Below the pieces are notes generated by a model. It did not search any database. It had not been told where the DNA came from and worked only from the letters and a program-made list of their open reading frames with translations. Positions 1 through 8,886 of a stretch of 8,886 bases of DNA are shown here, piece by piece (the stretch's first letter is position 1; the number at the start of each line of letters is the position of its first letter). The translations under genes and the position numbers were made by a program. The DNA comes from a bacterium (GTDB lineage Bacteria > UBP6 > JAFGXH01), in assembly GCA_027064085.1 (NCBI GenBank), contig JAMOQH010000115.1, positions 1 to 8,886 of the forward strand, given 5' to 3'.

Positions 1-63
1 TATAAAAGTAACTGTAAGAGAGAAGATTCCTAAAAGTGTTATTAAAAGAGTTGCACTGTTCAT
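1..63 (-). CDS. N-terminus of a membrane or secreted protein, cut by the window edge
   Basis: Only the first 21 codons are present. The start is ATG at 63-61, with an AGGAG Shine-Dalgarno sequence 6 nt upstream, lying inside the last codons of the gene before it; the stop of that gene (TGA, 67-65) is separated from this ATG by one base. The visible residues begin MNSATLLITLLGIF and are almost entirely hydrophobic, as in a signal peptide or first transmembrane helix. It is the fourth gene of the leftward operon and is probably translationally coupled to its predecessor. Nothing can be said about its function from this fragment. Confidence 0.6.
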   Translation of the reverse strand, partial: MNSATLLITLLGIFSLTVTFI

Positions 64-64
64 C

Positions 65-346
65 TCATACTCCTGCTTCTACTAAAGTGCAGTATGCAAC
101 ATTTATCACTTCATCACCTTTTTTAAAATATTGCTTTTTATAGATATTCCAATCATCCTTTTTATTCACAAGTATTGAGGCTCTGCCTCCAAGAGAAGCT
201 TGACAGATTAAACTCTTGCCTCTTTGGAAAGAAAGAATTGTTTGTTTTTTGGTGGTTTGTGTGCTATTCATATCCCCTAATTGCATAAGTATAATGATTC
301 CTAGTAAAAAAATTATTGTTGCCAGTACCTTTTTAGCATTTCGCAT
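65..346 (-). CDS. small N-terminally anchored hypothetical protein (93 aa)
   Basis: I do not recognise this protein. Residues 6-23 (KVLATIIFLLGIIILMQL) form one hydrophobic segment, either a membrane anchor or an uncleaved signal. The remaining ~70 residues are polar, lysine-rich and probably periplasmic, with two cysteines (in LICQAS and VAYCTL) that could pair there. The ATG at 346-344 has a strong AGGGAG ribosome-binding site 6 nt upstream, which fixes the start. It lies 79 bp after the membrane-protein gene and one base before the next gene, so it is probably the third gene of an operon. No catalytic motif is visible. Operon position suggests an envelope role shared with the neighbouring membrane proteins, but this is inference. 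Confidence 0.7.
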   Translation of the reverse strand: MRNAKKVLATIIFLLGIIILMQLGDMNSTQTTKKQTILSFQRGKSLICQASLGGRASILVNKKDDWNIYKKQYFKKGDEVINVAYCTLVEAGV

Positions 347-425
347 TATTAACTCCCTTATAAATCATTTGTAACGCTCCTTCATTTTAATTTATTATTT
401 TGTATCAAAGTATGATGCTCTCTAT

Positions 426-776
426 TTATAAAACCTTATCCAGATAATAAAGCAATAGTTCTTTATGCTTTTCATATTTCTTATCTGTAAAGAGGATATA
501 AAAGAACCCTGCTCCCAGTAACAAAAAAAGAAGGACTTGATAAGCACCTTTTATAATTAGCATATCTATAAGTAATATCCAAACAAGCATCAACATTACT
601 TCAGGAGAAAAATACTTATCCGCAAATTTAAAAAAGAGTCCACTTTCTATAAAATAGTACATCAATACCAACGCTATAATCGTATTAACTACCAATGTTG
701 TTGGACTTCCATGAGTAGTGATTCCATAAGCAGCATACGCTTCATTCATATCATAGGCTATCGTTGCGAGTGACAT
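426..776 (-). CDS. three-helix inner-membrane hypothetical protein (116 aa)
   Basis: Not recognised. Three hydrophobic stretches are visible at about residues 27-48, 60-75 and 78-96, followed by a short charged tail rich in Lys and Glu (from TDKKYEKHKE). The protein is therefore probably an integral inner-membrane protein with no soluble domain. The start at 776 is supported by AGGAG 9 nt upstream; the alternative Met10 (ATG at 749) lies just past the upstream stop codon but lacks a ribosome-binding site. Using 776, the gene overlaps the upstream gene by 26 bp, with its Shine-Dalgarno sequence inside that gene, which implies translational coupling and a linked function. No family motif can be assigned. 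Confidence 0.72.
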   Translation of the reverse strand: MSLATIAYDMNEAYAAYGITTHGSPTTLVVNTIIALVLMYYFIESGLFFKFADKYFSPEVMLMLVWILLIDMLIIKGAYQVLLFLLLGAGFFYILFTDKKYEKHKELLLYYLDKVL

Positions 777-1302
777 AGAGTTTTTCTCCTTGGTGTTGGA
801 TCTGCAATGGGGTAGTATGAAGTGTTAGGAGTTTTGTATTTTGTTCATACCAGAGAATGGCATCATAAATACCTACACCAGCAACAATATATTCAAATCC
901 ATAATTGTCTATGTAATATTGCCCTGCTTTTTGGATATAGATCATTGATTCTATTGCTTTGTATAAAGTTTTATCTCTATGGGCTAATAAAAAAGAGTCA
1001 AGCTCTACATCACTGAGTTGAGCAAGGAGTCCATTAGGAAGTGGTTGACACCCTGCTTTACCAAATGTACTGACATACTGCATAAAAAGTGCTATAGCAT
1101 CATCAATGGCTATGTCTGCATCAACACCATCTAATTCAAACTCTGCAAATGTTCCTGTTTCTTCATTGTTATAGAGAAAAAGTAGTGGTACTTCAAAGAG
1201 ACTGTACTCTTTATATTGCTTACTATTGGTTTTACAGAATGGTTCAAACTCATCTGCTGTAATAGTGACAGGTTCAATATTCTCAAACGGATTATGATGC
1301 AT
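751..1302 (-). CDS. acidic cytoplasmic hypothetical protein (183 aa)
   Basis: Not recognised. The sequence is acidic (clusters such as ELDGVDADIAIDD at about residues 56-68), has no signal peptide or membrane helix, and looks like a compact soluble cytoplasmic protein rich in aromatic and aliphatic residues. ATG at 1302-1300 is preceded by AAGGAG with a 5-nt gap, a strong ribosome-binding site. It is the first gene of the leftward operon; a TATAAT-like box on the minus strand at 1325-1320 or a further upstream AT-rich box could serve as promoter. Its 3' end overlaps the start of a membrane-protein gene by 26 bp, so the two products may work together, for example as a cytoplasmic partner of the membrane protein. 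That link is inference from gene order only. Confidence 0.72.
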   Translation of the reverse strand: MHHNPFENIEPVTITADEFEPFCKTNSKQYKEYSLFEVPLLFLYNNEETGTFAEFELDGVDADIAIDDAIALFMQYVSTFGKAGCQPLPNGLLAQLSDVELDSFLLAHRDKTLYKAIESMIYIQKAGQYYIDNYGFEYIVAGVGIYDAILWYEQNTKLLTLHTTPLQIQHQGEKLYVTRNDSL

Positions 1303-1409
1303 GGCAGCTCCTTTTTTATATTATAGTTGGTTTCTTATGATAATTTACATTTTATGGCAAACCGTCATATTTTATAATATGCCTTAAACTATTTGGCATA
1401 CATAAGTAT

Positions 1410-1427
1410 TGTAACAAAAATGTTACA
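1410..1427. promoter_or_regulatory. perfect inverted repeat TGTAACA-AAAA-TGTTACA, candidate operator
   Basis: Two 7-bp arms, exact reverse complements, are separated by AAAA. The site lies in the 178-bp space between the leftward operon (start 1302) and the rightward secreted-protein gene (start 1481), overlapping the expected -35 position of the TATAAT box at 1443. A dimeric repressor or activator bound here could control both directions. The arms could also form a small hairpin. The regulator is unknown. Confidence 0.4.
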
Positions 1428-1440
1428 AAAGAGCAAATAG

Positions 1441-1448
1441 TGTATAAT
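1441..1448 (+). promoter_or_regulatory. extended -10 promoter TGTATAAT
   Basis: TGTATAAT matches an extended -10 element and lies 33 bp before the ATG at 1481, giving a leader of roughly 25 nt. The same octamer is found before the HTH gene at 3310-3317 and, on the minus strand, before the membrane-protein gene at 3245-3238, which supports it as a promoter word in this genome. No good -35 is seen, as is usual for sigma70 promoters in Campylobacterota. Confidence 0.5.
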
Positions 1449-1480
1449 TGCGAAATAATTTAAAATCTGGAATGATAAAT

Positions 1481-1741
1481 ATGAAAAAAACAATAGTAAG
1501 TATGATCCTCTTTTCTTTTAGTGCAATAACGCTCAATGCCGGAATGTTTTCCATGGCAGCTGGAATGGCTATGAAAGAGATTAAGCCACAAGCTGCTTAT
1601 ACCGTTGATACTGCCGGAATAAACCCAAGGGTTTATGAGTTTAATACAAGAGTAAAACCTATTATGCACTGTATAGTACTTATTGCCAGCAGTGACAAAC
1701 TCGCTGCTCCTGCAATGCAGTGTTATAAAATAGAAAAATAG
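1481..1741 (+). CDS. small secreted or periplasmic hypothetical protein (86 aa)
   Basis: A classic signal peptide is visible: MKKT, a hydrophobic core (IVSMILFSFSAITL), then NA-G as a probable cleavage site near residue 20. The mature part is only about 65 residues with two cysteines (MHCIV and MQCYK) that could form a disulfide. An upstream in-frame TTG at 1448 would add 11 charged residues, but it overlaps the TATAAT box and puts the signal peptide inside the chain, so ATG 1481 is chosen; ATG 1472 is also possible. The ribosome-binding site is weak (GGAA about 10 nt upstream). The next gene begins 9 nt after the stop, so the two are probably co-transcribed, although a secreted peptide beside an HsdS-like protein makes no obvious pathway. 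Function unknown. Confidence 0.6.
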   Translation: MKKTIVSMILFSFSAITLNAGMFSMAAGMAMKEIKPQAAYTVDTAGINPRVYEFNTRVKPIMHCIVLIASSDKLAAPAMQCYKIEK

Positions 1742-1750
1742 GATAAGAGA

Positions 1751-2569
1751 TTGGAAGAATCTTCATCTGCAGAACGTTCTGAGGGGCTCTTAGAAGTATT
1801 AGCAAAAGATTTTAAAGGTATTCCTCTTACTACTTTAGATACATTAGTGAAAAATATCTCTTTGGCACCTAGTGTTCGTAGTGGTCCAAAAGAGAAACTT
1901 GATCCGAATGTAAAATATTATGAAGTAGGACTGCGAGATATAAATGCAGAGAGAGTAATTACACTTGAGCATTGCAAGAAAAAGAACCTCGGTCCTGCCA
2001 ATCCCTACCTTGTACAAAAATATGCTTTACATGAAAATGATCTCTTACTTCCATACAGAGCTTCTACTGATCTAACAATTGCAAGAGTTGGAAGTCATTA
2101 CCCTGCTGCTGTTGTTACCAATGCCAGTGTAATTCGTATTGAGATGAAAGAAGATACAACTACTGAGTTAGCAATACTGATACAAGCATATCTCTCAATT
2201 AGTTATGTAAAAAAAGCTATTCTTCCCAAAGAGATTTTTTCACGCGAGAGACGATATGGCAGATATCTTATCTCAATAAAAACTCTTTGTGCCCTACCTA
2301 TTCCTACATTTACCAATGTAATGGTAAAAGATAAAGAGTTTGGCGCATTATATCAAAGACGATTACATCTCAATTATATGTTGCGTGTAATCCGTGGCAA
2401 AAGTATGCAACTCTTACAAAGTTTTGATAAAGATGAAATAGAGACAATAAAACTCTATCTTCACGATAAAAATGATCTCCCAGCCATTAATGAGAAAGAG
2501 ACCTATCTTTTAAAAAAACTTGATGCATTATTAAATGAGTTCGTTTCTTTACAAAACGAACTACTTTAA
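1751..2569 (+). CDS. orphan HsdS-like (type I restriction specificity) protein, 272 aa
   Basis: The first ~200 residues resemble one target-recognition domain of a type I restriction-modification specificity subunit: YYEVGLRDIN (residues 57-66), an ENDLLLPYRAST segment (about 95-106, the usual 'gDill' strand), VGSHYPAAVVTNASVIRI (about 112-129), then a helical segment ending RRYGRYLISIKTLCALPIP. The C-terminal ~60 residues are helical and Leu/Glu/Lys-rich, possibly a coiled coil. Full HsdS has two such domains (about 400 aa), so this is a half-size form; half-subunits can work as dimers. No HsdM or HsdR gene is present here. The start is TTG at 1751, with AGGA about 8 nt upstream at the end of the previous gene; no ATG occurs until far inside the domain. 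The last 13 codons coincide with an inverted repeat related to the iterons. The family call is by resemblance and only moderately sure. Confidence 0.5.
   Translation: MEESSSAERSEGLLEVLAKDFKGIPLTTLDTLVKNISLAPSVRSGPKEKLDPNVKYYEVGLRDINAERVITLEHCKKKNLGPANPYLVQKYALHENDLLLPYRASTDLTIARVGSHYPAAVVTNASVIRIEMKEDTTTELAILIQAYLSISYVKKAILPKEIFSRERRYGRYLISIKTLCALPIPTFTNVMVKDKEFGALYQRRLHLNYMLRVIRGKSMQLLQSFDKDEIETIKLYLHDKNDLPAINEKETYLLKKLDALLNEFVSLQNELL
2531..2569. repeat. imperfect inverted repeat of iteron-like words at the end of the HsdS-like gene
   Basis: The left arm 2531-2546 and right arm 2554-2569 are 16-nt reverse complements at 14 of 16 positions, around a 7-nt loop. Read on the minus strand, the left arm is AAACGAACTCATTTAA, one base from the 16-nt iteron AAACGAAGTCATTTAA; the right arm is AAACGAACTACTTTAA, with a three-base difference. 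The site includes the stop codon of the HsdS-like gene. It has no T-run, so it is a poor intrinsic terminator. Possible roles are attachment site, extra Rep site or RNA hairpin. Confidence 0.6.
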
Positions 2570-2608
2570 CACCCCCTACTCTCTTATGCATCCACAATAA
2601 AACAACTA

Positions 2609-2624
2609 TTAAATGACTTCGTTT
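2609..2624 (-). repeat. isolated exact iteron in inverted orientation
   Basis: TTAAATGACTTCGTTT is the exact reverse complement of the 16-nt iteron AAACGAAGTCATTTAA found in the array that begins at 3798, about 1.2 kb away. A 16-nt exact match is unlikely by chance even in AT-rich DNA. It may be an outlying Rep-binding site or a remnant of a rearranged array. Confidence 0.7.
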
Positions 2625-2639
2625 TTTTAAACAAATCCC

Positions 2640-2753
2640 CTAAAACAGCCCTTGACAATCATTATATAACTCAAATCCATAAGAACATATCTCCAAACAT
2701 GTAGCCAAGAGAATCAAGATTTCTTTATTAATTACTTTTTTTATTACTTTCAT
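2640..2753 (-). CDS. possible 37-aa peptide with signal-like N-terminus, perhaps a gene remnant
   Basis: An ATG at 2753-2751, 10 nt after the stop of the membrane-protein gene, opens a 37-codon frame ending at TAG 2642-2640. It begins MKVIKKVINKEILILLATC and continues to YGFELYNDCQ, so it reads like a signal peptide followed by the first residues of a secreted protein. The ribosome-binding site is weak. It ends just before the inverted iteron at 2609-2624. It may be a real small peptide, or the 5' remnant of a longer gene cut at the edge of the cassette. The call rests only on the frame and its hydropathy. Confidence 0.3.
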   Translation of the reverse strand: MKVIKKVINKEILILLATCLEICSYGFELYNDCQGLF

Positions 2754-2763
2754 AGCTTATACT

Positions 2764-3180
2764 TTAATCATTAATATTATAAACGGGTTTAGTTTCTGAA
2801 AAAAATGCAACTACCGCAATAAATACAAAAAAGACTAAAGGTGTTGCAGCCAAATAAAGAATTCCCTCTGCAACACTCATCATAAAACCGTATAATGGAG
2901 AAGTTCTTTTTATATTAACATAAATCACACTAAATAATAAAAGAGCTCCTATGACTATTAATAAAATACCATTTAATATATCTCCATGCACTTTTAACTC
3001 CTGAATATACCATTCATTCCCAAAATAGATAGCGATATATCCAAGAACACTAAGAACGAAGTTCCCCACATTAAATATCTCATATTTATATACTCTTACA
3101 CTATACTCGTTTGAGAACTGTATAAAGAGCGCAATGACAATAAGACCAACAATAATTCCGATAATAGATAAGACTAACAT
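2764..3180 (-). CDS. four-helix membrane hypothetical protein (138 aa)
   Basis: Not recognised. Four hydrophobic segments are visible, at about residues 2-21, 39-54, 69-88 and 105-129, linked by short polar loops; the loop NEYSVRVYKYE after the first helix is charged. The protein should be an integral inner-membrane protein. The ATG at 3180-3178 has an excellent AAGGAG ribosome-binding site 6 nt upstream, which fixes the start. A TGTATAAT box on the minus strand at 3245-3238 is the likely promoter, about 50 nt from where translation begins. It is transcribed divergently from a small HTH gene, so that protein may regulate it. Possible plasmid roles such as entry exclusion or maintenance are speculation; no motif supports one. 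Confidence 0.7.
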   Translation of the reverse strand: MLVLSIIGIIVGLIVIALFIQFSNEYSVRVYKYEIFNVGNFVLSVLGYIAIYFGNEWYIQELKVHGDILNGILLIVIGALLLFSVIYVNIKRTSPLYGFMMSVAEGILYLAATPLVFFVFIAVVAFFSETKPVYNIND

Positions 3181-3201
3181 AGATAACTCCTTTTATTTTA
3201 A

Positions 3202-3246
3202 ATGTATAATATTATTTTTATTAGATAAATAAATCATATTATACAT
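3202..3246. promoter_or_regulatory. perfect 11-bp inverted repeat containing opposed TGTATAAT boxes
   Basis: ATGTATAATAT at 3202-3212 and ATATTATACAT at 3236-3246 are exact reverse complements separated by 23 bp. The right arm carries TGTATAAT on the minus strand (3245-3238) and is the probable promoter of the membrane-protein gene. The left arm carries the same box on the plus strand, pointing toward the HTH gene about 140 bp away. The repeat may be simply two opposed promoters, or an operator for the neighbouring HTH protein. Confidence 0.45.
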
Positions 3247-3309
3247 AACAAAATAATAAATAAAAAAAGTATAAATGTCAAGAAAAAAAGTATATCTTTA
3301 TAAAAGTAG

Positions 3310-3317
3310 TGTATAAT
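3310..3317 (+). promoter_or_regulatory. extended -10 promoter TGTATAAT of the HTH gene
   Basis: TGTATAAT lies 33 bp upstream of the ATG at 3351, the same distance as in the promoter at 1441-1448. The implied leader is about 27 nt and contains the ribosome-binding sequence GAGAG. No convincing -35 is visible. Confidence 0.5.
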
Positions 3318-3350
3318 AGTCGTAATATATGATTCAAATGAGAGATTAAG

Positions 3351-3590
3351 ATGGAAAAACAAAAATTTATAAACTTATTAGATCTGGCACACATCAATAA
3401 AAAAGAATTTGCAAAAATTGCTAATATCCCTTATGGTACCGTTAATAATTGGGGATTAAAAAGAAAAGGCAAAATATTAGCAATACCAAACTGGGTAGAG
3501 CCTTTTATTTACTATTATCTAAAAGCAAAAAAGCTTGAGTATGTTACTGAAGAGATTTGCCAAAAATTACAAGAGGTAAAAGAAGAATAA
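3351..3590 (+). CDS. small helix-turn-helix DNA-binding protein (79 aa)
   Basis: Residues 17-37 (KKEFAKIANIPYGTVNNWGLK) have the form of a helix-turn-helix: a first helix with the KEFAK pattern, a turn at NIPYG, and a recognition helix TVNNW. This is the arrangement of small XRE/Cro-like or phage-repressor-type proteins. The C-terminal half is helical and charged (from about residue 48) and could mediate dimerisation. There is no other domain, so it is a regulator rather than an enzyme. It stands divergent from the membrane-protein gene, with a perfect inverted repeat between them that it might bind, and just upstream of the iteron region, so a role in copy control is also possible. The ATG has GAGAG about 8 nt upstream. 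A terminator hairpin begins within the stop codon region. Confidence 0.7.
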   Translation: MEKQKFINLLDLAHINKKEFAKIANIPYGTVNNWGLKRKGKILAIPNWVEPFIYYYLKAKKLEYVTEEICQKLQEVKEE

Positions 3591-3612
3591 GAAATTTTTC
3601 TTATTTTTTTTT
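3586..3612 (+). terminator. rho-independent terminator of the HTH gene
   Basis: AATAAGAAA (3586-3594) pairs with TTTCTTATT (3597-3605), and a run of T follows through 3612. The stem contains the stop codon of the HTH gene. The all-A/T-rich stem with a long T-run is typical for low-GC bacteria. Confidence 0.65.
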
Positions 3613-3652
3613 ACAAAATGCAATATTTATAAAAAAATAACTTCTTTTTAAC

Positions 3653-3658
3653 TACAAT
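3653..3658 (+). promoter_or_regulatory. possible -10 box TACAAT for a leaderless transcript
   Basis: TACAAT ends 6 bp before the ATG at 3665, so transcription would begin at or within a base or two of that ATG. No ribosome-binding site is seen before this ATG, which is consistent with a leaderless message. Evidence is only a six-base match in AT-rich DNA. The transcript would run into the iteron array. Confidence 0.25.
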
Positions 3659-3664
3659 AGCAAC

Positions 3665-3799
3665 ATGAACAATTCAAAAAATAGAGTAATCAATGATTAT
3701 CAACTTATTCTTTATATATTAAATACCTCTAAAGACAAAAGTATTGCACATATACTTCAAAGATTTAATAATATAAAAAAGATGTTAAGTAATAAGTAA
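3665..3799 (+). CDS. possible 44-aa peptide immediately before the iteron array
   Basis: ATG at 3665 opens a 44-codon frame ending TAA at 3797-3799; the final two bases of the stop are the first bases of the first 16-nt iteron. The peptide is basic and helical in look (…YQLILYILNTSKDKS…, …HILQRFNNIKKML…) and could be a small DNA- or Rep-binding protein. There is no ribosome-binding site, but a TACAAT box sits at the right distance for a leaderless transcript. It could equally be chance in AT-rich DNA or a decayed gene. No family is recognised. Confidence 0.3.
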   Translation: MNNSKNRVINDYQLILYILNTSKDKSIAHILQRFNNIKKMLSNK

Positions 3800-4123
3800 A
3801 CGAAGTCATTTAATAATAAATATATCCTTTTACATATAATTCTAAATAAAAACGAAGTCATTTAATAGTTAATCAAATCAATAATAAATATAAATAAAAC
3901 GAAGTCATTTAATAATAAATATATCCTTTTATTTACAAAATATGTCTTTTTACTCTATAATTCTAAATAAAAACGAAGTCATTTAATAAAAACTCTTAAT
4001 AATTTTAAATATTTTTCAAAATACCGAAGTCATTTAAGGGCATAAACGAAGTCATTTAAGTATAAAACGAAGTCATTTAAGGATATACCGAAGTCATTTA
4101 AGGGCATAAACGAAGTCATTTAA
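3798..4123 (+). repeat. iteron array: nine direct repeats, probable oriV
   Basis: The 13-nt core CGAAGTCATTTAA occurs exactly nine times in one orientation, at 3801, 3853, 3900, 3974, 4025, 4047, 4068, 4089 and 4111. Seven copies have AAA before the core and two (4025, 4089) have TAC. The last five are spaced 22, 21, 21 and 22 bp, two helical turns, as for iterons bound by a plasmid initiator; the first four are 47-74 bp apart. The array also shows internal duplication (a 43-nt block at 4021-4063 is repeated at 4085-4127). It lies 75 bp beyond the 3' end of the rep gene in very AT-rich DNA. The repeats are direct and too close, and the spacers too similar, for CRISPR. The 608-bp space between 3590 and 4199 is made of this array, the short ORF before it and the repeats after it. 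Confidence 0.88.
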
Positions 4124-4132
4124 GTATTAGTA

Positions 4133-4169
4133 TAGATAATATAGATATATTTAGATAATATAGATATAT
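4133..4169. repeat. two 18-nt AT-rich direct repeats, candidate DNA unwinding element
   Basis: TAGATAATATAGATATAT occurs at 4133-4150 and again at 4152-4169, a 19-bp period. It lies next to the last iteron and contains only two G per copy and no C. AT-rich direct repeats beside iterons are the usual place where a plasmid origin is melted. The melting role is inferred from position and composition. Confidence 0.5.
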
Positions 4170-4210
4170 CAGATATAAATAATCTATTAAGGATTATTTT
4201 AATCTGATAT
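4166..4210 (-). terminator. long hairpin at the 3' end of the rep gene
   Basis: Arms 4166-4184 and 4192-4210 are 19 nt each and complementary at 17 positions, with a 7-nt loop; the rep stop codon (4201-4199) lies in the promoter-proximal arm. Position suggests a transcript end for the parA-parB-rep operon, protecting the origin from read-through. There is no U-run after the hairpin on the minus strand, so it may stabilise the 3' end, or be part of the origin as a cruciform, rather than terminate. Confidence 0.45.
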
Positions 4211-5053
4211 AGTAATTTTTTCTTTTTCTTTACCTTTCATGAATGTAATACTATTTTCAAAACTTGATTTACGATATATTAATTTTGATTTTGGTTCAAA
4301 TACTATGCCGTATTCAGATAATAATTCTATATTATCTTTTATTTCTTTAATTGCTTTTTGTTTCATTCGTATAGATTCAAGAGGAAAACCAACAGTTTTT
4401 AAAAGAGTTTCAATATTCATATTACTTCCTATAGAATGTGACCAGAAAAATCGAATTATGGATCGAAGTAAAGCACTCTTAACCTTTAATAATTTTGGAA
4501 GTTCTTTTTTATAATTAATAGTTAATTGTTCCTCAAAGAATTTTCTGTAAGCTGATGTCAATACTAATCCAAATGAATTATGTTTGGTACTAAATGCATG
4601 TGAATCAACTATACTAAAACTATAATAATCTTGAGAATTATTTTGTTTAAATTCAATTGAACTATTTTGTATTTCATCTAATTTATCTTTGAGCCATTTT
4701 GTATTTGTATTAATTTTCCCACTATAAGATTTTAATATTTGTGTGGTTGAAAAATAAACAGCTATTGCCCCACCCTCTAATTCTTTTACCTCTTTTGCAT
4801 CAGCTAAAATACAATCCAATAGATCCCTGTGAGTTTGAGTTAATATATTACCTTTAATAATAGTTTTTCCCCAACTTGTTTCAATGGTACGTTTTCTTCC
4901 ATTATTTATAAAATCTTTGTATGTTTTAGAATTAGCAGATATTTTATCTATTGGTGCAAAAATACCAGTACGAAGTTCATTTGCTGTTGTAATTGTTTTT
5001 TCAAATTTGTGAATTACATCAAATTCTAAAGTTAATTGTTTTTTCTTAGCCAT
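4199..5053 (-). CDS. plasmid replication initiator, winged-helix Rep (284 aa)
   Basis: This is probably the initiator that binds the iterons and opens the origin. Residues 71-83 (LTQTHRDLLDCIL) match the conserved first helix seen in TrfA/RepC-like initiators; two winged-helix modules can be placed at roughly 70-155 and 185-265, the second with basic helices (VKSALLRSIIRFFW, then IRMKQKAIKEIKD). Length is normal for such initiators. The start chosen is ATG 5053, which overlaps the parB stop as TAATG, a coupling junction; an in-frame TTG at 5065 would add only four residues and lacks a better ribosome-binding site. It is the last gene of the parA-parB-rep operon, and the iterons lie after its 3' end rather than before it, so autoregulation through the iterons in the usual way is unlikely. 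The family call rests on motif resemblance plus context. Confidence 0.72.
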   Translation of the reverse strand: MAKKKQLTLEFDVIHKFEKTITTANELRTGIFAPIDKISANSKTYKDFINNGRKRTIETSWGKTIIKGNILTQTHRDLLDCILADAKEVKELEGGAIAVYFSTTQILKSYSGKINTNTKWLKDKLDEIQNSSIEFKQNNSQDYYSFSIVDSHAFSTKHNSFGLVLTSAYRKFFEEQLTINYKKELPKLLKVKSALLRSIIRFFWSHSIGSNMNIETLLKTVGFPLESIRMKQKAIKEIKDNIELLSEYGIVFEPKSKLIYRKSSFENSITFMKGKEKEKITISD

Positions 5054-5931
5054 TATACTGACCAACTAGATGATATTATTAATATTTCTTCATTTAACTG
5101 TATTATTTTTTTATTTATTATTTGTAATTGATCTTGGGATAATTTTTTTATGTCAATATTAATATTAATTTTAGTGTTAGTATTTTTAATATTGACAATT
5201 GATTTATTTTTATCTTCCTTGGCTAAGTATCTAGTTTTAATATATTTTTCTGCTTCAGAGCGAGATAAATCTTTAACATTATTAAATGCCTCAAACATTT
5301 GCTTTTCATCTTCGAGTTTATTTAATAAAACTAATATATTTATATCCGTATAATTAATATCTTTAATCATTTTAATAATATTTGCAGGTAATTTTAAAAT
5401 ATTTATGAGTTTTGAAACATATCCTTTAGATAGTCCTACATATTCAGCTAATTTATTTTGACTTTCTACTATAGAATTATCAAGAATATTTTTTATAGCA
5501 ATTGCATTTTCAATAGGATGCAAATTTTCTCTCATTAAATTTTCAGTTAGTGATAAAACTGCTAAATCTTTATCATTTAAATCTTTCATTATAATACATT
5601 GTATTTTTTCTTTCCCCATTATTTTAAAAGCTTCATATCGCCTATGTCCTGCAACAATAACATACGATTCATTATTATTAAAGGTAGGGGTTATAACTAT
5701 TGGTTGCATTAAACCATTTTGTTCAATTGAGGAAATTAATTCATTTAGAGATTGTATATTAATATCTATTCTTGGTTGATAAGGATTACTTTGTAAATTT
5801 TTTAAAGGAATTTCAACAATATTTTTTGTAGAAACTTCTTCTGGAATAGATTTAATTCGTTTTATTAGAGGAGAGGATTCCGCAATTGTTTTACTCATTT
5901 CTGAAGTAATTCTATTTCTTTTTTTTGCCAT
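5053..5931 (-). CDS. parB: ParB partition protein (292 aa)
   Basis: ParB binds parS, loads as a CTP-dependent clamp and connects DNA to ParA. All expected parts are visible: a basic N-terminal tail (residues 1-30) of the kind that stimulates ParA ATPase; NPYQPR (49-54); GHRRYEA (95-101), the Arg-rich CTP-binding motif; TENLMREN (129-136), corresponding to the usual TENLQRE; a helix-turn-helix at about 158-182 (LAEYVGLSKGYVSKLINIL); and an Asn/Ile/Lys-rich linker followed by a helical C-terminal dimerisation segment. The start ATG 5931 has an AGG ribosome-binding site 8 nt upstream and overlaps the parA stop by 20 bp. It overlaps rep by one base at TAATG. Its likely site is the palindrome at 6715-6734. 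The gene is AT-rich like the rest of the cassette. Confidence 0.92.
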   Translation of the reverse strand: MAKKRNRITSEMSKTIAESSPLIKRIKSIPEEVSTKNIVEIPLKNLQSNPYQPRIDINIQSLNELISSIEQNGLMQPIVITPTFNNNESYVIVAGHRRYEAFKIMGKEKIQCIIMKDLNDKDLAVLSLTENLMRENLHPIENAIAIKNILDNSIVESQNKLAEYVGLSKGYVSKLINILKLPANIIKMIKDINYTDINILVLLNKLEDEKQMFEAFNNVKDLSRSEAEKYIKTRYLAKEDKNKSIVNIKNTNTKININIDIKKLSQDQLQIINKKIIQLNEEILIISSSWSV

Positions 5932-6607
5932 TTTTTAAACCTGCCTTTTTTTCTATTTCTTTTATTAAAGTTGTTATTTCATTACTAGATTTACTTTTTT
6001 TGTCTAATTCTTTTACACTAAAACCATACCCTATTGAGTGCTTATAATCAGATCTAAATCTAATTACTGTATCAAAAAGTTTAAAGTGTTTGATGTCATT
6101 TATAAAATCAACAATATCAGTAAAATCTTTAAGTTTAGGATCTATTTTATTTAATAATACATTCACTTTAACAATTTCTCCCTTAATAACAGAGAGTTCT
6201 TCTAATATTGTTTTAAATTTTTGAAGACCAAATATTTCCATATAATCAGATGATACAGGTGTAATAACAAAATCACTTGCAATAATTGCCAATCTATTAA
6301 GATCAGCATCATAGCCACCAGAATCAATAATTACCAAAGTATCATCCTCAACAGAATTTATAAATTCTTCTAGTCGTGAACGTTCATCATCAGTAAATCT
6401 TATAATTTTTAGAGGAGAATGACCATATTCCATTCTTAATCTATTTGTCATAGTAACAGATTCTTGATTATCTAAATCTACAAAAATAAATTTTTTATAT
6501 CCATATTTTTTGTATTTTTTTCGAAGTTCAACTGCTAAATTCCAGGCTAATGTACTCTTTCCAGTACCGCCTTTTTGATGTGCCAACGTTATGATATTAG
6601 TTTGCAA
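5912..6607 (-). CDS. parA: ParA partition ATPase (231 aa)
   Basis: ParA is a Walker-type ATPase that moves ParB-bound plasmids over the nucleoid. Seen in the sequence: deviant Walker A KGGTGKS (12-18) with signature lysine K12; Walker A' VDLDNQES (43-50), where most ParAs have DxDPQ; and Walker B LVIID (91-95). The protein is short and lacks the N-terminal HTH of type Ia ParA, so it is of the small type Ib class, which normally does not repress its own operon. The start is TTG at 6607, placing M-Q-T-N-I-I nine residues before the P-loop region; AGGAG 5 nt upstream fixes it. It is the first gene of the parA-parB-rep operon, with a TATAAT box on the minus strand at 6663-6658. The C-terminus ends in a run of lysines (KNGKKKK). 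Confidence 0.93.
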   Translation of the reverse strand: MQTNIITLAHQKGGTGKSTLAWNLAVELRKKYKKYGYKKFIFVDLDNQESVTMTNRLRMEYGHSPLKIIRFTDDERSRLEEFINSVEDDTLVIIDSGGYDADLNRLAIIASDFVITPVSSDYMEIFGLQKFKTILEELSVIKGEIVKVNVLLNKIDPKLKDFTDIVDFINDIKHFKLFDTVIRFRSDYKHSIGYGFSVKELDKKSKSSNEITTLIKEIEKKAGLKNGKKKK

Positions 6608-6648
6608 ATTTTCTCCTAATGAGGTAATAACATTAATTTAATTTTAAA

Positions 6649-6669
6649 AATTGTATAATTATATCAATT
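6649..6669 (-). promoter_or_regulatory. parA operon promoter within a near-perfect inverted repeat
   Basis: The 21-bp segment reads AATTG, then the perfect palindrome TATAATTATA, an extra T, and CAATT, so it is an inverted repeat apart from one base. It contains TATAAT on the minus strand (6663-6658), giving a leader of about 44 nt before the parA TTG. The symmetry suggests an operator overlapping the promoter, but AT-rich palindromes also arise by chance. Confidence 0.4.
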
Positions 6670-6714
6670 TAAAATAAAAATATGAATATTTAATAAGTAA
6701 AATCTTTAAATATA

Positions 6715-6734
6715 GTGTTTCACATGTGAAACAC
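6715..6734. promoter_or_regulatory. parS: parS-like centromere palindrome with two extra central bases
   Basis: GTGTTTCACATGTGAAACAC is a perfect 20-bp palindrome. It contains both halves of the known ParB site TGTTNCAC/GTGAAACA, but they are separated by AT, making an 18-bp core instead of the canonical 16 bp. It lies between divergent parA and the helicase gene, 22 bp before the helicase ATG, and close to a possible TATAGT box at 6711-6716, so ParB bound here could also repress the helicase. Only one copy was noticed in the window. Confidence 0.8.
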
Positions 6735-6755
6735 CTAGCAAAATAAAGAGGAAAA

Positions 6756-7976
6756 ATGCAAGAACTAACCTATGATACAAATATAGAAGCAACAATAATT
6801 TCAAGTTTAATATATTCCCCAGCATTACTTGATAAATATATAGAGAAAATCAACAAAAAACTTTTCTTTTTACCCTTACATTTAAAAATTATTGAAGTAA
6901 TACTAAAATTGCACCAATCCGAAAAAATTATTGATGAAGAAATTATTCGTAATAAAATTGGCAAGGAATATGAAAATGAGCTCATTTACATAATTTCTAA
7001 AAATCCTATAAACTATTTAGAAGACTATATTGAAATTCTTCAGGATTACTCTATTAAGAGAGATATGCAATCTCTTGCCTTTAATATAACTAAATCTCTT
7101 CAATCAAATACATCTGGTTTGGAATTACAGGCAAAAGTAAACACCTTAACAGAAGCTATGTCATCTTCTTCTCAAGTGGAACTTTTGGAGATTAATAATA
7201 TAGAAAATATTGAAGATAAAGAGGTTGAATTTATTTGTAAATCTTGGCTTCCTATTCCTATTAGGACAGTATCTTTAGTTACTGCTCCTGGTGGAACTGG
7301 TAAAAGTTGGTTTGTTTTGCAATTAGCAATAAGAGCTATTCAAGAAGCTACTATTAAAAAAGCATTTCTATGGTTAAGTGAAGATCCTAAAGAAATTAGT
7401 AAAAATAGATTTAATAAAGTTTTTGACAAAGTACTTAAACTTACAGATAATTCTATAAAGAGTAAAATAGATATTAGTGACTCCCCTACTATCCAGTTTC
7501 TTTATGATGATCAAAGAAGAGTAGAGGTTTCCCCACTACTCTCTCATTTTAAAGCAAAACTTCAGGAGTATGATTTAATAGTATTAGATCCTTTAATAGC
7601 TTTTTATGGTACTGATGAAAATAATAACTCAAGCGCAAGAAGATTTATGCAACTTTTTACTGATTGGGCCAATAAAGAGAATAAAACTATTATTTTTATT
7701 CATCACTCCACTAAAAATACTACTCAAAGTAGAGGTGCATCAGCATTTGTAGATGCAGTAAGAACTGTTTATGAACTTGATAAGATAAAAGATAAAGAGG
7801 GCAATGTTCAAGAATCCAATAAAAGAGTTGTAAAACTTACTAAAGATAATTATGGAATATCTCATATATTAGAAAGCTTTAGTGTGGAGAGAGAATTGTT
7901 TCCAAGAGTAGTCAAATTTGAAGAGACATCTTATAATACTGATATGCCATCATTTGGAATACCAAATGATTTTTAA
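6756..7976 (+). CDS. replicative helicase: DnaB-like N-terminal domain joined to a RepA-like hexameric ATPase (406 aa)
   Basis: Residues 1-115 look like the DnaB helicase N-terminal domain (NIEATIISSLIY near the start, then a helical bundle), the part of DnaB that interacts with primase. The rest is a RecA-fold ATPase of the AAA_25/RepA type: Walker A APGGTGKS (177-184), a catalytic-region Glu in WLSEDP (206-211), Walker B LIVLD (274-278), IIFIHHSTK (312-320), and SRGASAFVDAVR (325-336) with candidate arginine-finger residues. RepA of IncQ plasmids has this ATPase without the DnaB domain. The probable role is the plasmid's own replication helicase at oriV, unwinding DNA and bringing in host DnaG; no plasmid primase is present. 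ATG 6756 has AGAGG 4 nt upstream. It is divergent from parA, with the parS-like site in its leader. A DNA-repair or phage helicase is a less likely alternative. Confidence 0.8.
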   Translation: MQELTYDTNIEATIISSLIYSPALLDKYIEKINKKLFFLPLHLKIIEVILKLHQSEKIIDEEIIRNKIGKEYENELIYIISKNPINYLEDYIEILQDYSIKRDMQSLAFNITKSLQSNTSGLELQAKVNTLTEAMSSSSQVELLEINNIENIEDKEVEFICKSWLPIPIRTVSLVTAPGGTGKSWFVLQLAIRAIQEATIKKAFLWLSEDPKEISKNRFNKVFDKVLKLTDNSIKSKIDISDSPTIQFLYDDQRRVEVSPLLSHFKAKLQEYDLIVLDPLIAFYGTDENNNSSARRFMQLFTDWANKENKTIIFIHHSTKNTTQSRGASAFVDAVRTVYELDKIKDKEGNVQESNKRVVKLTKDNYGISHILESFSVERELFPRVVKFEETSYNTDMPSFGIPNDF

Positions 7977-7979
7977 AAT

Positions 7980-8007
7980 AATAAAAATAGTTAAATCAAT
8001 TTTTATT
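7980..8007 (+). terminator. weak A/T-only hairpin after the helicase gene
   Basis: AATAAAAAT (7980-7988) pairs with ATTTTTATT (7999-8007) around a 10-nt loop, just after the helicase stop. There are no G-C pairs and no T-run after it, so it would be a weak terminator. The rest of 8008-8091 shows no gene or clear site. Confidence 0.25.
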
Positions 8008-8091
8008 AAACGTAAATGGGGAGAAAATCCGAGATTATAAAATAAGAAGCTTTTAAATAAGAGTAGATAAAACATTAAGTTATAAAAGGTG

Positions 8092-8139
8092 TTAAAATAG
8101 TTTGTTTTTTAAAGAAAAATATAAAACGAACTATTTTAA
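8092..8139. repeat. inverted repeat of iteron-like words at the right edge of the cassette
   Basis: Arms 8092-8107 and 8124-8139 are 16 nt each and complementary at 15 of 16 positions, with a 16-nt AT-rich loop. The right arm AAACGAACTATTTTAA differs at one position from the right arm of the 2531-2569 repeat and shares AAACGAA and TTTAA with the iterons. It stands between the convergent helicase and NUDIX genes, 11 bp beyond the NUDIX stop, so it might also act as a two-way terminator. Confidence 0.6.
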
Positions 8140-8149
8140 TAGTAGATAA

Positions 8150-8593
8150 TTAAATAGATAGAGTAGGGTGATATTTTTTTAAATAGTCTTTTATAATAGT
8201 GCTATGATCAAATACAAGCTTTTTTAACTCTTTTTGCAGGTCCTCTAAAATAAATACCTTTGCCTCTTTTGCATCATCTGCTCCAAGAGGTGTACCATAA
8301 GCCTTACAAACATAGACTACAGAAGCTGTATGAAATCTTATATCTCTTTTGGGGTCAGAATATACTCCAAGGAGTGATTGAATAGTAACATCTAAAGATA
8401 TTTCCTCTTTCATTTCTCTTATAACTGCTTGTTCAACACTCTCTCCAATATTTACAAATCCACCAGGAAGTGCAAGACCAATAGGGGGATATTTTCTTTG
8501 TATTAAAACAATGCCTAGAAGCTTCTCAGTGTTATTATATATTTCAACTATACCATCTGTTGCAAGATAGGGTGTTTTTGGTGTGAATGCCAT
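8150..8593 (-). CDS. NUDIX hydrolase, probably ADP-ribose pyrophosphatase type (147 aa)
   Basis: NUDIX enzymes cleave nucleoside diphosphates linked to another group, using Mg2+ held by the NUDIX-box glutamates. The box is at residues 45-67: G45, E51, R59-E60, E63-E64, preceded by the typical LPGG (42-45). The usual Gly before the last hydrophobic residue is Ser66, a tolerated change. The following VYSDPKRDIRFHTASVVY (about 77-94) resembles the DPxRDPR-H motif of small ADP-ribose pyrophosphatases, so ADP-ribose hydrolysis to AMP and ribose-5-phosphate is the best guess; substrate cannot be fixed from sequence. Length is normal and complete. ATG 8593 has AAAGG 8 nt upstream. Its base composition is less AT-rich than the neighbouring plasmid-type genes, and it is convergent with the helicase gene, so it is probably part of the flanking DNA. 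Confidence 0.88.
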   Translation of the reverse strand: MAFTPKTPYLATDGIVEIYNNTEKLLGIVLIQRKYPPIGLALPGGFVNIGESVEQAVIREMKEEISLDVTIQSLLGVYSDPKRDIRFHTASVVYVCKAYGTPLGADDAKEAKVFILEDLQKELKKLVFDHSTIIKDYLKKYHPTLSI

Positions 8594-8730
8594 TTATATG
8601 CCTTTATATCGTATATTTAAAGTTGTTTGGTATTTTTATCATAAATTTAACTAATTTATATCTTTGCTTTGTTTTTATAAGTTAATGTTGGTTCTTCAAT
8701 CTTTTCAAATTCATAATCCACATAATACCT

Positions 8731-8886
8731 CTATTTTTGAAATGGTAATTTTGACATAATTATTTCATGTTGATTCACATATTGCCTGCAGTCTTTACCA
8801 CCAAGTTTCTGACAGGTTTGTTGCCAAAGTATAGAATGCCCATTATTTTCATTAGAATTTTTATGAAGAGCAAAGAGCAGGGCATG
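8731..8886 (-). CDS. C-terminal 51 codons of an unrecognised protein, cut by the window edge
   Basis: The minus-strand frame open at the right edge runs 51 codons to TAG at 8733-8731. It reads like true coding sequence (HALLFALHKNSNENN, then WQQTCQKLGGKDCRQYV, ending LPFQK), with two cysteines seven residues apart and no hydrophobic helix, so a soluble protein. The frame stays open after the TAG for 24 more codons, to TAA at 8658-8656. It is upstream of the NUDIX gene in the same direction, with 62-137 bp between them. No family is recognised, and because the start is missing, coding status rests on frame and composition. Confidence 0.5.
   Translation of the reverse strand, partial: HALLFALHKNSNENNGHSILWQQTCQKLGGKDCRQYVNQHEIIMSKLPFQK

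Follow-up and report, generated by a model that had tools for sequence, protein, structure and literature searches.

An iteron-type initiator gene directly behind parA-parB in a putative replication and partition module of Sulfurimonas-type plasmids

The window analysed here is the whole of contig JAMOQH010000115.1 (G000:C115), 8,886 nucleotides long, and all coordinates are window positions 1–8886. It carries parA, parB and the replication initiator gene rep in this order and in a single direction, the gene order known from repABC replicons. parA and parB overlap by 20 bp (5912–5931), while the parB stop codon and the rep start codon share one common base in a TAATG at 5055–5051. The coordinates thus agree with the earlier note on this DNA, which had described the trio, its overlap and its junction, and likened the order to repABC. 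The 1-nt overlap leaves no room between parB and rep for the intergenic counter-transcribed RNA (ctRNA) of repABC, as had also been stated. A described RNA in the window was rejected because the Rfam search gave no match, a search that did not extend to antisense RNA inside coding sequence. A helicase gene diverges from parA on one side of the trio, and iterons with AT-rich DNA follow rep on the other (Table 1). The helicase gene and the parS-like palindrome before it do not figure in the earlier note. The assembly is quite probably a module for replication and partition of a low-copy plasmid of Sulfurimonas type, in which Rep would act on the iterons and rep would be expressed behind parA-parB from the parA promoter.

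Table 1 Features of the window discussed in the text
Feature	Position	Strand	Description
parA	5912–6607	minus	ParA/MinD-type ATPase, 231 aa, TTG start, without N-terminal regulatory domain
parB	5053–5931	minus	Centromere-binding protein, 292 aa, ATG start
rep	4199–5053	minus	Predicted replication initiator, 284 aa, ATG start, Rep_3 superfamily by fold
AT-rich putative unwinding element	4124–4198		Between rep stop and iterons; ATATCTATA-type repeats, TRF repeats 4131–4175
Core iteron array	4024–4123	plus	Five copies, spacing 22/21/21/22 bp
Sparser iterons	3800–3986	plus	Four copies, 47–74 bp apart
Iteron starts	3800, 3852, 3899, 3973, 4024, 4046, 4067, 4088, 4110		
Outlying inverted iterons	2531–2622	minus	2531–2544 with 1 mismatch, 2609–2622 exact
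Putative parA promoter	6658–6686	minus	TTCATA – 17 bp – TATAAT, extended −10; scan not significant by itself
parS-like palindrome	6715–6734		Perfect 20-bp palindrome GTGTTTCACATGTGAAACAC between parA and helicase gene, 21 bp before helicase start codon
Replicative helicase	6756–7976	plus	406 aa; DnaB N-terminal domain and RSF1010 RepA-like ATPase core
NUDIX hydrolase	8150–8593	minus	NUDIX 2.8e-18; helicase neighbour on related plasmids

The window Rep alone has no Pfam, NCBIfam or PDB sequence match. Relatives collected from plasmid records and species genomes are nearly all from Campylobacterota, and none was found in the viral contigs searched. The window protein is 85% identical to the Rep of plasmid pSULFM1 and 81–88% identical to the Rep of Sulfurimonas plasmids. 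The AlphaFold2 model of Rep, built on an 18-sequence alignment, is confident (pLDDT 88.5, pTM 0.87) and displays two winged-helix domains of the RepE/Pi type. Its best solved match is RctB domains 2–3 (Z 12.8, 4.5 Å over 221 residues), and it also superposes on mini-F RepE54 (Z 11.7, 3.9 Å over 190 residues) and R6K Pi (Z 10.2, 3.9 Å over 199 residues). Unrelated structures in this comparison, in which Foldseek was also run, stay at Z 5.6 or less, far below these three. The fold common to RctB (Vibrio cholerae ori2), RepE (mini-F) and Pi (R6K) extends over Rep residues 17–267 (Z 10–13) at 7–14% identity, and these systems share with the window the position of iterons next to AT-rich DNA. To our knowledge, none of the three genes is the third gene of a par operon. 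Pfam Rep3_N matches four of the 21 Rep family members, the best being the relative L020 (5.2e-7, over the curated cut-off), and not the window protein. As the modelled fold matches RctB, RepE and Pi and relatives match Rep3_N, Rep is assigned by predicted structure to the iteron initiators of the Rep_3 superfamily, and it would be expected to bind the iterons and start replication. The Pfam RP-C model of repABC RepC matches neither Rep nor its 20 relatives up to E = 1, which together with the Rep_3-type fold confirms the earlier view that Rep is not that protein. In contrast, the proposed likeness of Rep to TrfA or IncQ RepC finds no support: the models of both lack any match among the 21 family members in Pfam up to E = 1, and neither protein is among the fold matches, although absence from those lists is no evidence. 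The resemblance to IncQ plasmids holds for the neighbouring divergent helicase only. Two Rep relatives carry C-terminal extensions (L022:2797–4410, 537 aa, and L029:7408–8538, 376 aa). Others contain an in-frame stop (G174:C1, G201:C1, G260:C170, G083:C1, G317:C5 and G296:C7, several on megabase contigs) and are probably decayed remnants of integrated plasmids.

The origin region lies on the rep-distal side, where nine direct iterons (ACGAAGTCATTTAA, two with 1 mismatch) occupy 3800–4123. Of all 13-mers in the window, CGAAGTCATTTAA occurs most often, with 9 copies, whereas the best 13-mer in 200 dinucleotide-preserving shuffles has a mean of 2 and a maximum of 6. The array after rep is kept with the same spacing in relatives, and its five iterons align in 8 plasmids, including those of a second Rep clade described below; first-clade iterons have the core TTAAATGACTTCG, second-clade iterons a TTAAAGTACTTCG-like one. 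As no shuffled 13-mer reached nine copies and the array is conserved, it is not a product of chance. Sparse extra copies are also present in L002, L012 and L013. The AT-rich element is kept in sequence and position in relatives of both Rep clades, and its contact with the iterons is the arrangement of Rep_3-type origins. The two elements thus have the layout expected of an iteron origin with an unwinding element, at which Rep would bind and the DNA would melt. Their location agrees with the earlier claim that the origin follows rep, unlike the repABC origin, which lies inside repC. The repeats were also considered as Xer/dif sites and rejected, since Campylobacterota difH and dif (PMC2731167) are unlike CGAAGTCATTTAA. 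Separate 30-bp inverted repeats, 90% complementary, are located at 2544–2573 and 8088–8140, towards either end of the plasmid core. The CGAACTAYTTTAA within them resembles the second-clade iteron, and 8088–8140 can form a long stem. At L013:6840–7150, sparse iteron-like sites have TATTAAAT/TATAAT-like sequence before them and hairpins with T runs behind, and are possibly small RNA genes under Rep control.

The partition proteins are recognised by ParA profiles (AAA_31 4.5e-15; NCBIfam ParA_partition 2.1e-32, 112 bits, under the 180-bit cut-off) and by ParB profiles (ParB_N 1.6e-21, HTH_ParB 5.7e-10). Against the repABC models, ParA scores 20 bits with RepA (TIGR03453, cut-off 348) and ParB 81 bits with RepB (TIGR03454, cut-off 201.5). 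The window ParA is 88–92% identical to the ParA of close Sulfurimonas relatives. In the 148-bp divergent region between parA and the helicase gene, the palindrome GTGTTTCACATGTGAAACAC is invariant in six relatives and doubled in L011, L012 and L014, the second L014 copy having one mismatch; only 2 of 2000 shuffles of the region contain a palindrome arm of 10 or more. This candidate centromere has the sequence of the canonical bacterial parS TGTTTCAC/GTGAAACA with AT at its centre. Other ParB lineages have other palindromes in or near their par genes, such as ATGTTCATGAACAT in the second clade and TGTTTCCCCGGGAAACA in L021. The TATAAT of the putative parA promoter is invariant in six close relatives and is the only promoter motif conserved in position.

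The divergent gene encodes a helicase of hybrid type, matched in Pfam by DnaB (1.2e-9) and AAA_25 (1.1e-19). In profile searches against PDB, residues 8–115 have the N-terminal domain of Helicobacter pylori DnaB as best match (1e-18) and residues 170–368 match RSF1010 RepA (4.6e-10). The core displays the RecA-like fold of RepA (Z 21.1, 2.9–3.1 Å over 213–215 residues, within 143–386; 20% identity), and its hexameric state is predicted only. From the known role of the DnaB N-terminal domain, this domain would recruit the host DnaG primase.

In the mechanism proposed, Rep would bind the five phased iterons just past its own gene and melt the adjoining AT-rich DNA, where the divergent helicase would be loaded and its DnaB domain would bring the host primase. 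ParA and ParB would partition the plasmid through the palindrome between parA and the helicase gene. Transcription of rep would start at the conserved parA promoter and run through parA-parB, probably with translational coupling as well, and the supply of initiator would then follow the expression of the partition genes. From the sequence we infer both this co-transcription and a control of copy number from the parA promoter. ParB at the palindrome would probably repress the flanking promoters. Larger ParA proteins repress their own operon via the N-terminal domain; since the window ParA is short and without this domain, ParB is the likelier regulator. The iteron copies that are outlying or sparse may serve to titrate Rep or to handcuff it, in the manner of the additional sites of RctB (PMC6090056).

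Across Campylobacterota plasmids the rep gene occurs in three main arrangements. In arrangement A the helicase gene is divergent from parA-parB-rep, as in the window, pSULFM1, L011–L014, L023, L025, L026 and the Sulfurimonas paralvinellae plasmid, whose helicase gene spans the record start; L024 shows the trio only. The parB-rep gap ranges from −1 to about +9 bp in 11 of 11 arrangement-A loci. In arrangement H rep follows the helicase gene. The parAB pair is then divergent (L016, L017, L021, pSULKU03), lies ahead of the two genes with the same orientation (L008, L020, L094) or falls outside the sequence in view (L004, L005, L027, L028). The third arrangement, that of Campylobacter and Helicobacter plasmids including pTet, has the helicase core and Rep in one protein of about 598 aa; such fusions are seen at L009:5179–6972, L010:5203–6996 and L098:5035–6828. 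In a few loci rep lies beside neither parB nor a helicase gene.

The Rep tree separates the arrangement-A sequences into two clades, each nested with helicase-rep relatives, and a single clade is rejected (p-AU 7.6e-6). The first-clade Rep groups with L016–L018 and L078 while the first-clade ParA groups with L021, a helicase-rep plasmid; since these groupings differ, the members of the trio had separate histories before they were joined. Identity between the two clades is 43–49% for ParA, 33–40% for ParB and 37–41% for Rep. In contrast, the L023 and L026 helicases share 74–82% identity with the first-clade helicases, a level also seen among the latter themselves when L014 is set aside, and the helicase tree interleaves the two Rep clades, with the first group as one clade rejected (p-AU 1.3e-4). 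Some tree rows have long branches, leaving finer placements unsure. By these comparisons the parA-parB-rep order was assembled at least twice within one Rep family, independently of repABC, which upholds and extends the earlier suggestion of a separately assembled coupling. Because the trio diverges strongly between the clades while the helicases stay similar and interleave, the block with its iterons and parS-like palindrome has been exchanged as a unit, and either side of the junction may have moved.

The position of the rep promoter admits another reading, in which rep is merely adjacent to parAB, has its own Rep-autoregulated promoter inside parB as in mini-F and P1, and owes its operon look to compaction. 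Among known Rep_3 initiators, autoregulation from a promoter of their own is usual, many promoter-like matches occur inside parB on the rep strand, and in other plasmids of the Rep family rep lies behind the helicase instead. The number of these matches is, however, at chance level, the aligned 3′ ends of parB in six relatives contain no position-conserved motif comparable to that of parA, and the sequence before rep yielded neither an iteron nor another Rep site. The tight gaps in all 11 loci and the 1-nt overlap in the window also speak for expression behind parA-parB, so that a separately driven rep is unlikely. An internal promoter keeps this share of probability because the promoter scan shows no excess over shuffles; with the general scan at chance, the points drawn from the parA promoter and from the 3′ end of parB take all their weight from conservation.

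The replicon itself points to Campylobacterota. The module belongs, by sequence, to Sulfurimonas-type plasmids, and the host bin is of another phylum, in which none of the other genomes among the 28 examined has this Rep. For two genes of the left flank, relatives stand near one another in Sulfurimonadaceae genomes; the one gene of the two that was searched for in the phylum of the bin has none there. With a plasmid core and flanking genes that resemble those of Sulfurimonas, the contig has probably been misbinned, transfer of the plasmid to another phylum being a possible alternative. The bin is low in G+C (0.24–0.34 in sampled contigs), which would favour misbinning, and gave no 16S match. 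The same module occurs in L023, L024 and L027, contigs of metagenome-assembled genomes labelled Candidatus Gracilibacteria, where the same binning problem probably applies. The NUDIX hydrolase has copies 72–74% identical in L013, L023 and the closed S. paralvinellae plasmid. Beyond the iterons, a small helix-turn-helix gene (3351–3590, plus strand; phrog_8898 7.7e-11) has weak relatives beyond rep in L003, L021, L016 and L091. An open reading frame at 1751–2569 (plus strand) has a marginal match to a type I restriction specificity subunit (PADLOC 0.0062) and an iteron copy in its 3′ end.

The block could also be an integrated remnant and not a working plasmid. The contig ends without overlap, its left third has a higher G+C (0.335 against 0.23–0.28) and genes found in Sulfurimonadaceae genomes, and broken chromosomal rep copies are present elsewhere in the Campylobacterota. 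Yet all reading frames are intact, the iterons, AT-rich element and palindrome are conserved, and the same layout is found on two closed circular Sulfurimonas plasmids with no other annotated initiator, one of them with the NUDIX neighbour. Integration and decay are thus improbable, slightly more so than a separate rep promoter. Membership of the module in the alphaproteobacterial repABC family, as a divergent form, is rejected as hardly credible, for beyond the shared order and the weak ParB match to RepB, both Par proteins score far below the family cut-offs, no Rep family member matches a repABC RepC model, the origin with its iterons follows rep, and the ctRNA space is lacking.

Some observations weigh against the plasmid module as proposed. 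That there is a single transcript, that the iterons and the parS-like site are bound, that the helicase is loaded and recruits primase, that ParB feeds back and that copy number is low are all read from the anatomy of the locus, and the literature searched holds no functional test of this Rep family. The promoter scan is at chance level, and the origin stretch contains no DnaA box of the Epsilonproteobacterial type (PMC5043019), the nearest matches being inside rep and at the far left. The window is, in addition, a contig fragment with non-overlapping ends that is probably misbinned.

The closest counterparts are the Sulfurimonas aquatica plasmid pSULFM1 (81.9 kb) and the S. paralvinellae GO25 plasmid (49.8 kb), which display the same divergent helicase and parA-parB-rep, tight gaps and phased iterons after rep. 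The S. paralvinellae block belongs to the second clade (Rep 41%, ParA 46% and ParB 36% identical to the window) and has another iteron sequence and palindrome; the records of both plasmids list rep as "hypothetical protein". Campylobacter pTet and similar plasmids (NC_006135) have a homologous initiator and RepA-like ATPase, but as a fusion without the DnaB N-terminal domain and without parAB before the fusion gene. IncQ RSF1010 repA-repC resembles the window in its helicase core, RepA, and arrangement H in its helicase-then-initiator order. In contrast, the window helicase has the DnaB N-terminal domain attached and Rep has no IncQ RepC match; no RepB′-type primase was seen beside the window helicase. 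The repABC replicons (PMC6090056) share the ParA, ParB, initiator order in one direction, whereas in the window the initiator is unrelated, the iterons lie outside its gene, the ctRNA gap is missing and ParA is short and lacks the N-terminal domain. Chromid replication has been reviewed as being of repABC or iteron type, with repABC only in alphaproteobacteria (PMC6090056); in the window unit, an iteron initiator stands in a repABC-like order. In the sections of PMC4338851 covered here, Leptospira plasmids lcp1–lcp3 have rep directly downstream of parAB outside alphaproteobacteria, a likeness in gene order. The same sections state that vectors with rep alone transformed some Leptospira strains, and report no divergent helicase. 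With this precedent, the order of rep after parAB by itself is not unheard of.

No description of the Campylobacterota parA-parB-rep arrangement was found in the literature searched, whose coverage excluded subscription journals. What is new is that a widespread unnamed initiator family has been identified by fold, that its genes alternate between a place behind parB, a place behind a helicase gene and fusion to the helicase, and that there is evidence of the block having been assembled repeatedly and exchanged whole. A wider reading, which we offer tentatively and hold somewhat short of even odds, is that the partition promoter sets initiator supply in a self-regulated unit evolved at least twice in Campylobacterota and independently of repABC, that ParB spreading from the palindrome before the helicase gene regulates both arms, and that the entire parA-parB-parS-rep-iteron block is traded as an incompatibility cassette while the hybrid DnaB/RepA helicase stays constant. 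The initiator family, now identified by fold, has been carried as "hypothetical protein" on plasmids of Sulfurimonas, Sulfuricurvum, Nitrosophilus and the Arcobacter group and hidden in "AAA family ATPase" on those of pTet type. It offers a natural comparison, inside one Rep family, between loci that express rep from the partition genes and loci that express it from a helicase gene. It thereby becomes directly testable why genes for partition and for initiation come together in a single operon, as they do in repABC, and the module provides origin parts for vectors in a bacterial group with few genetic tools.

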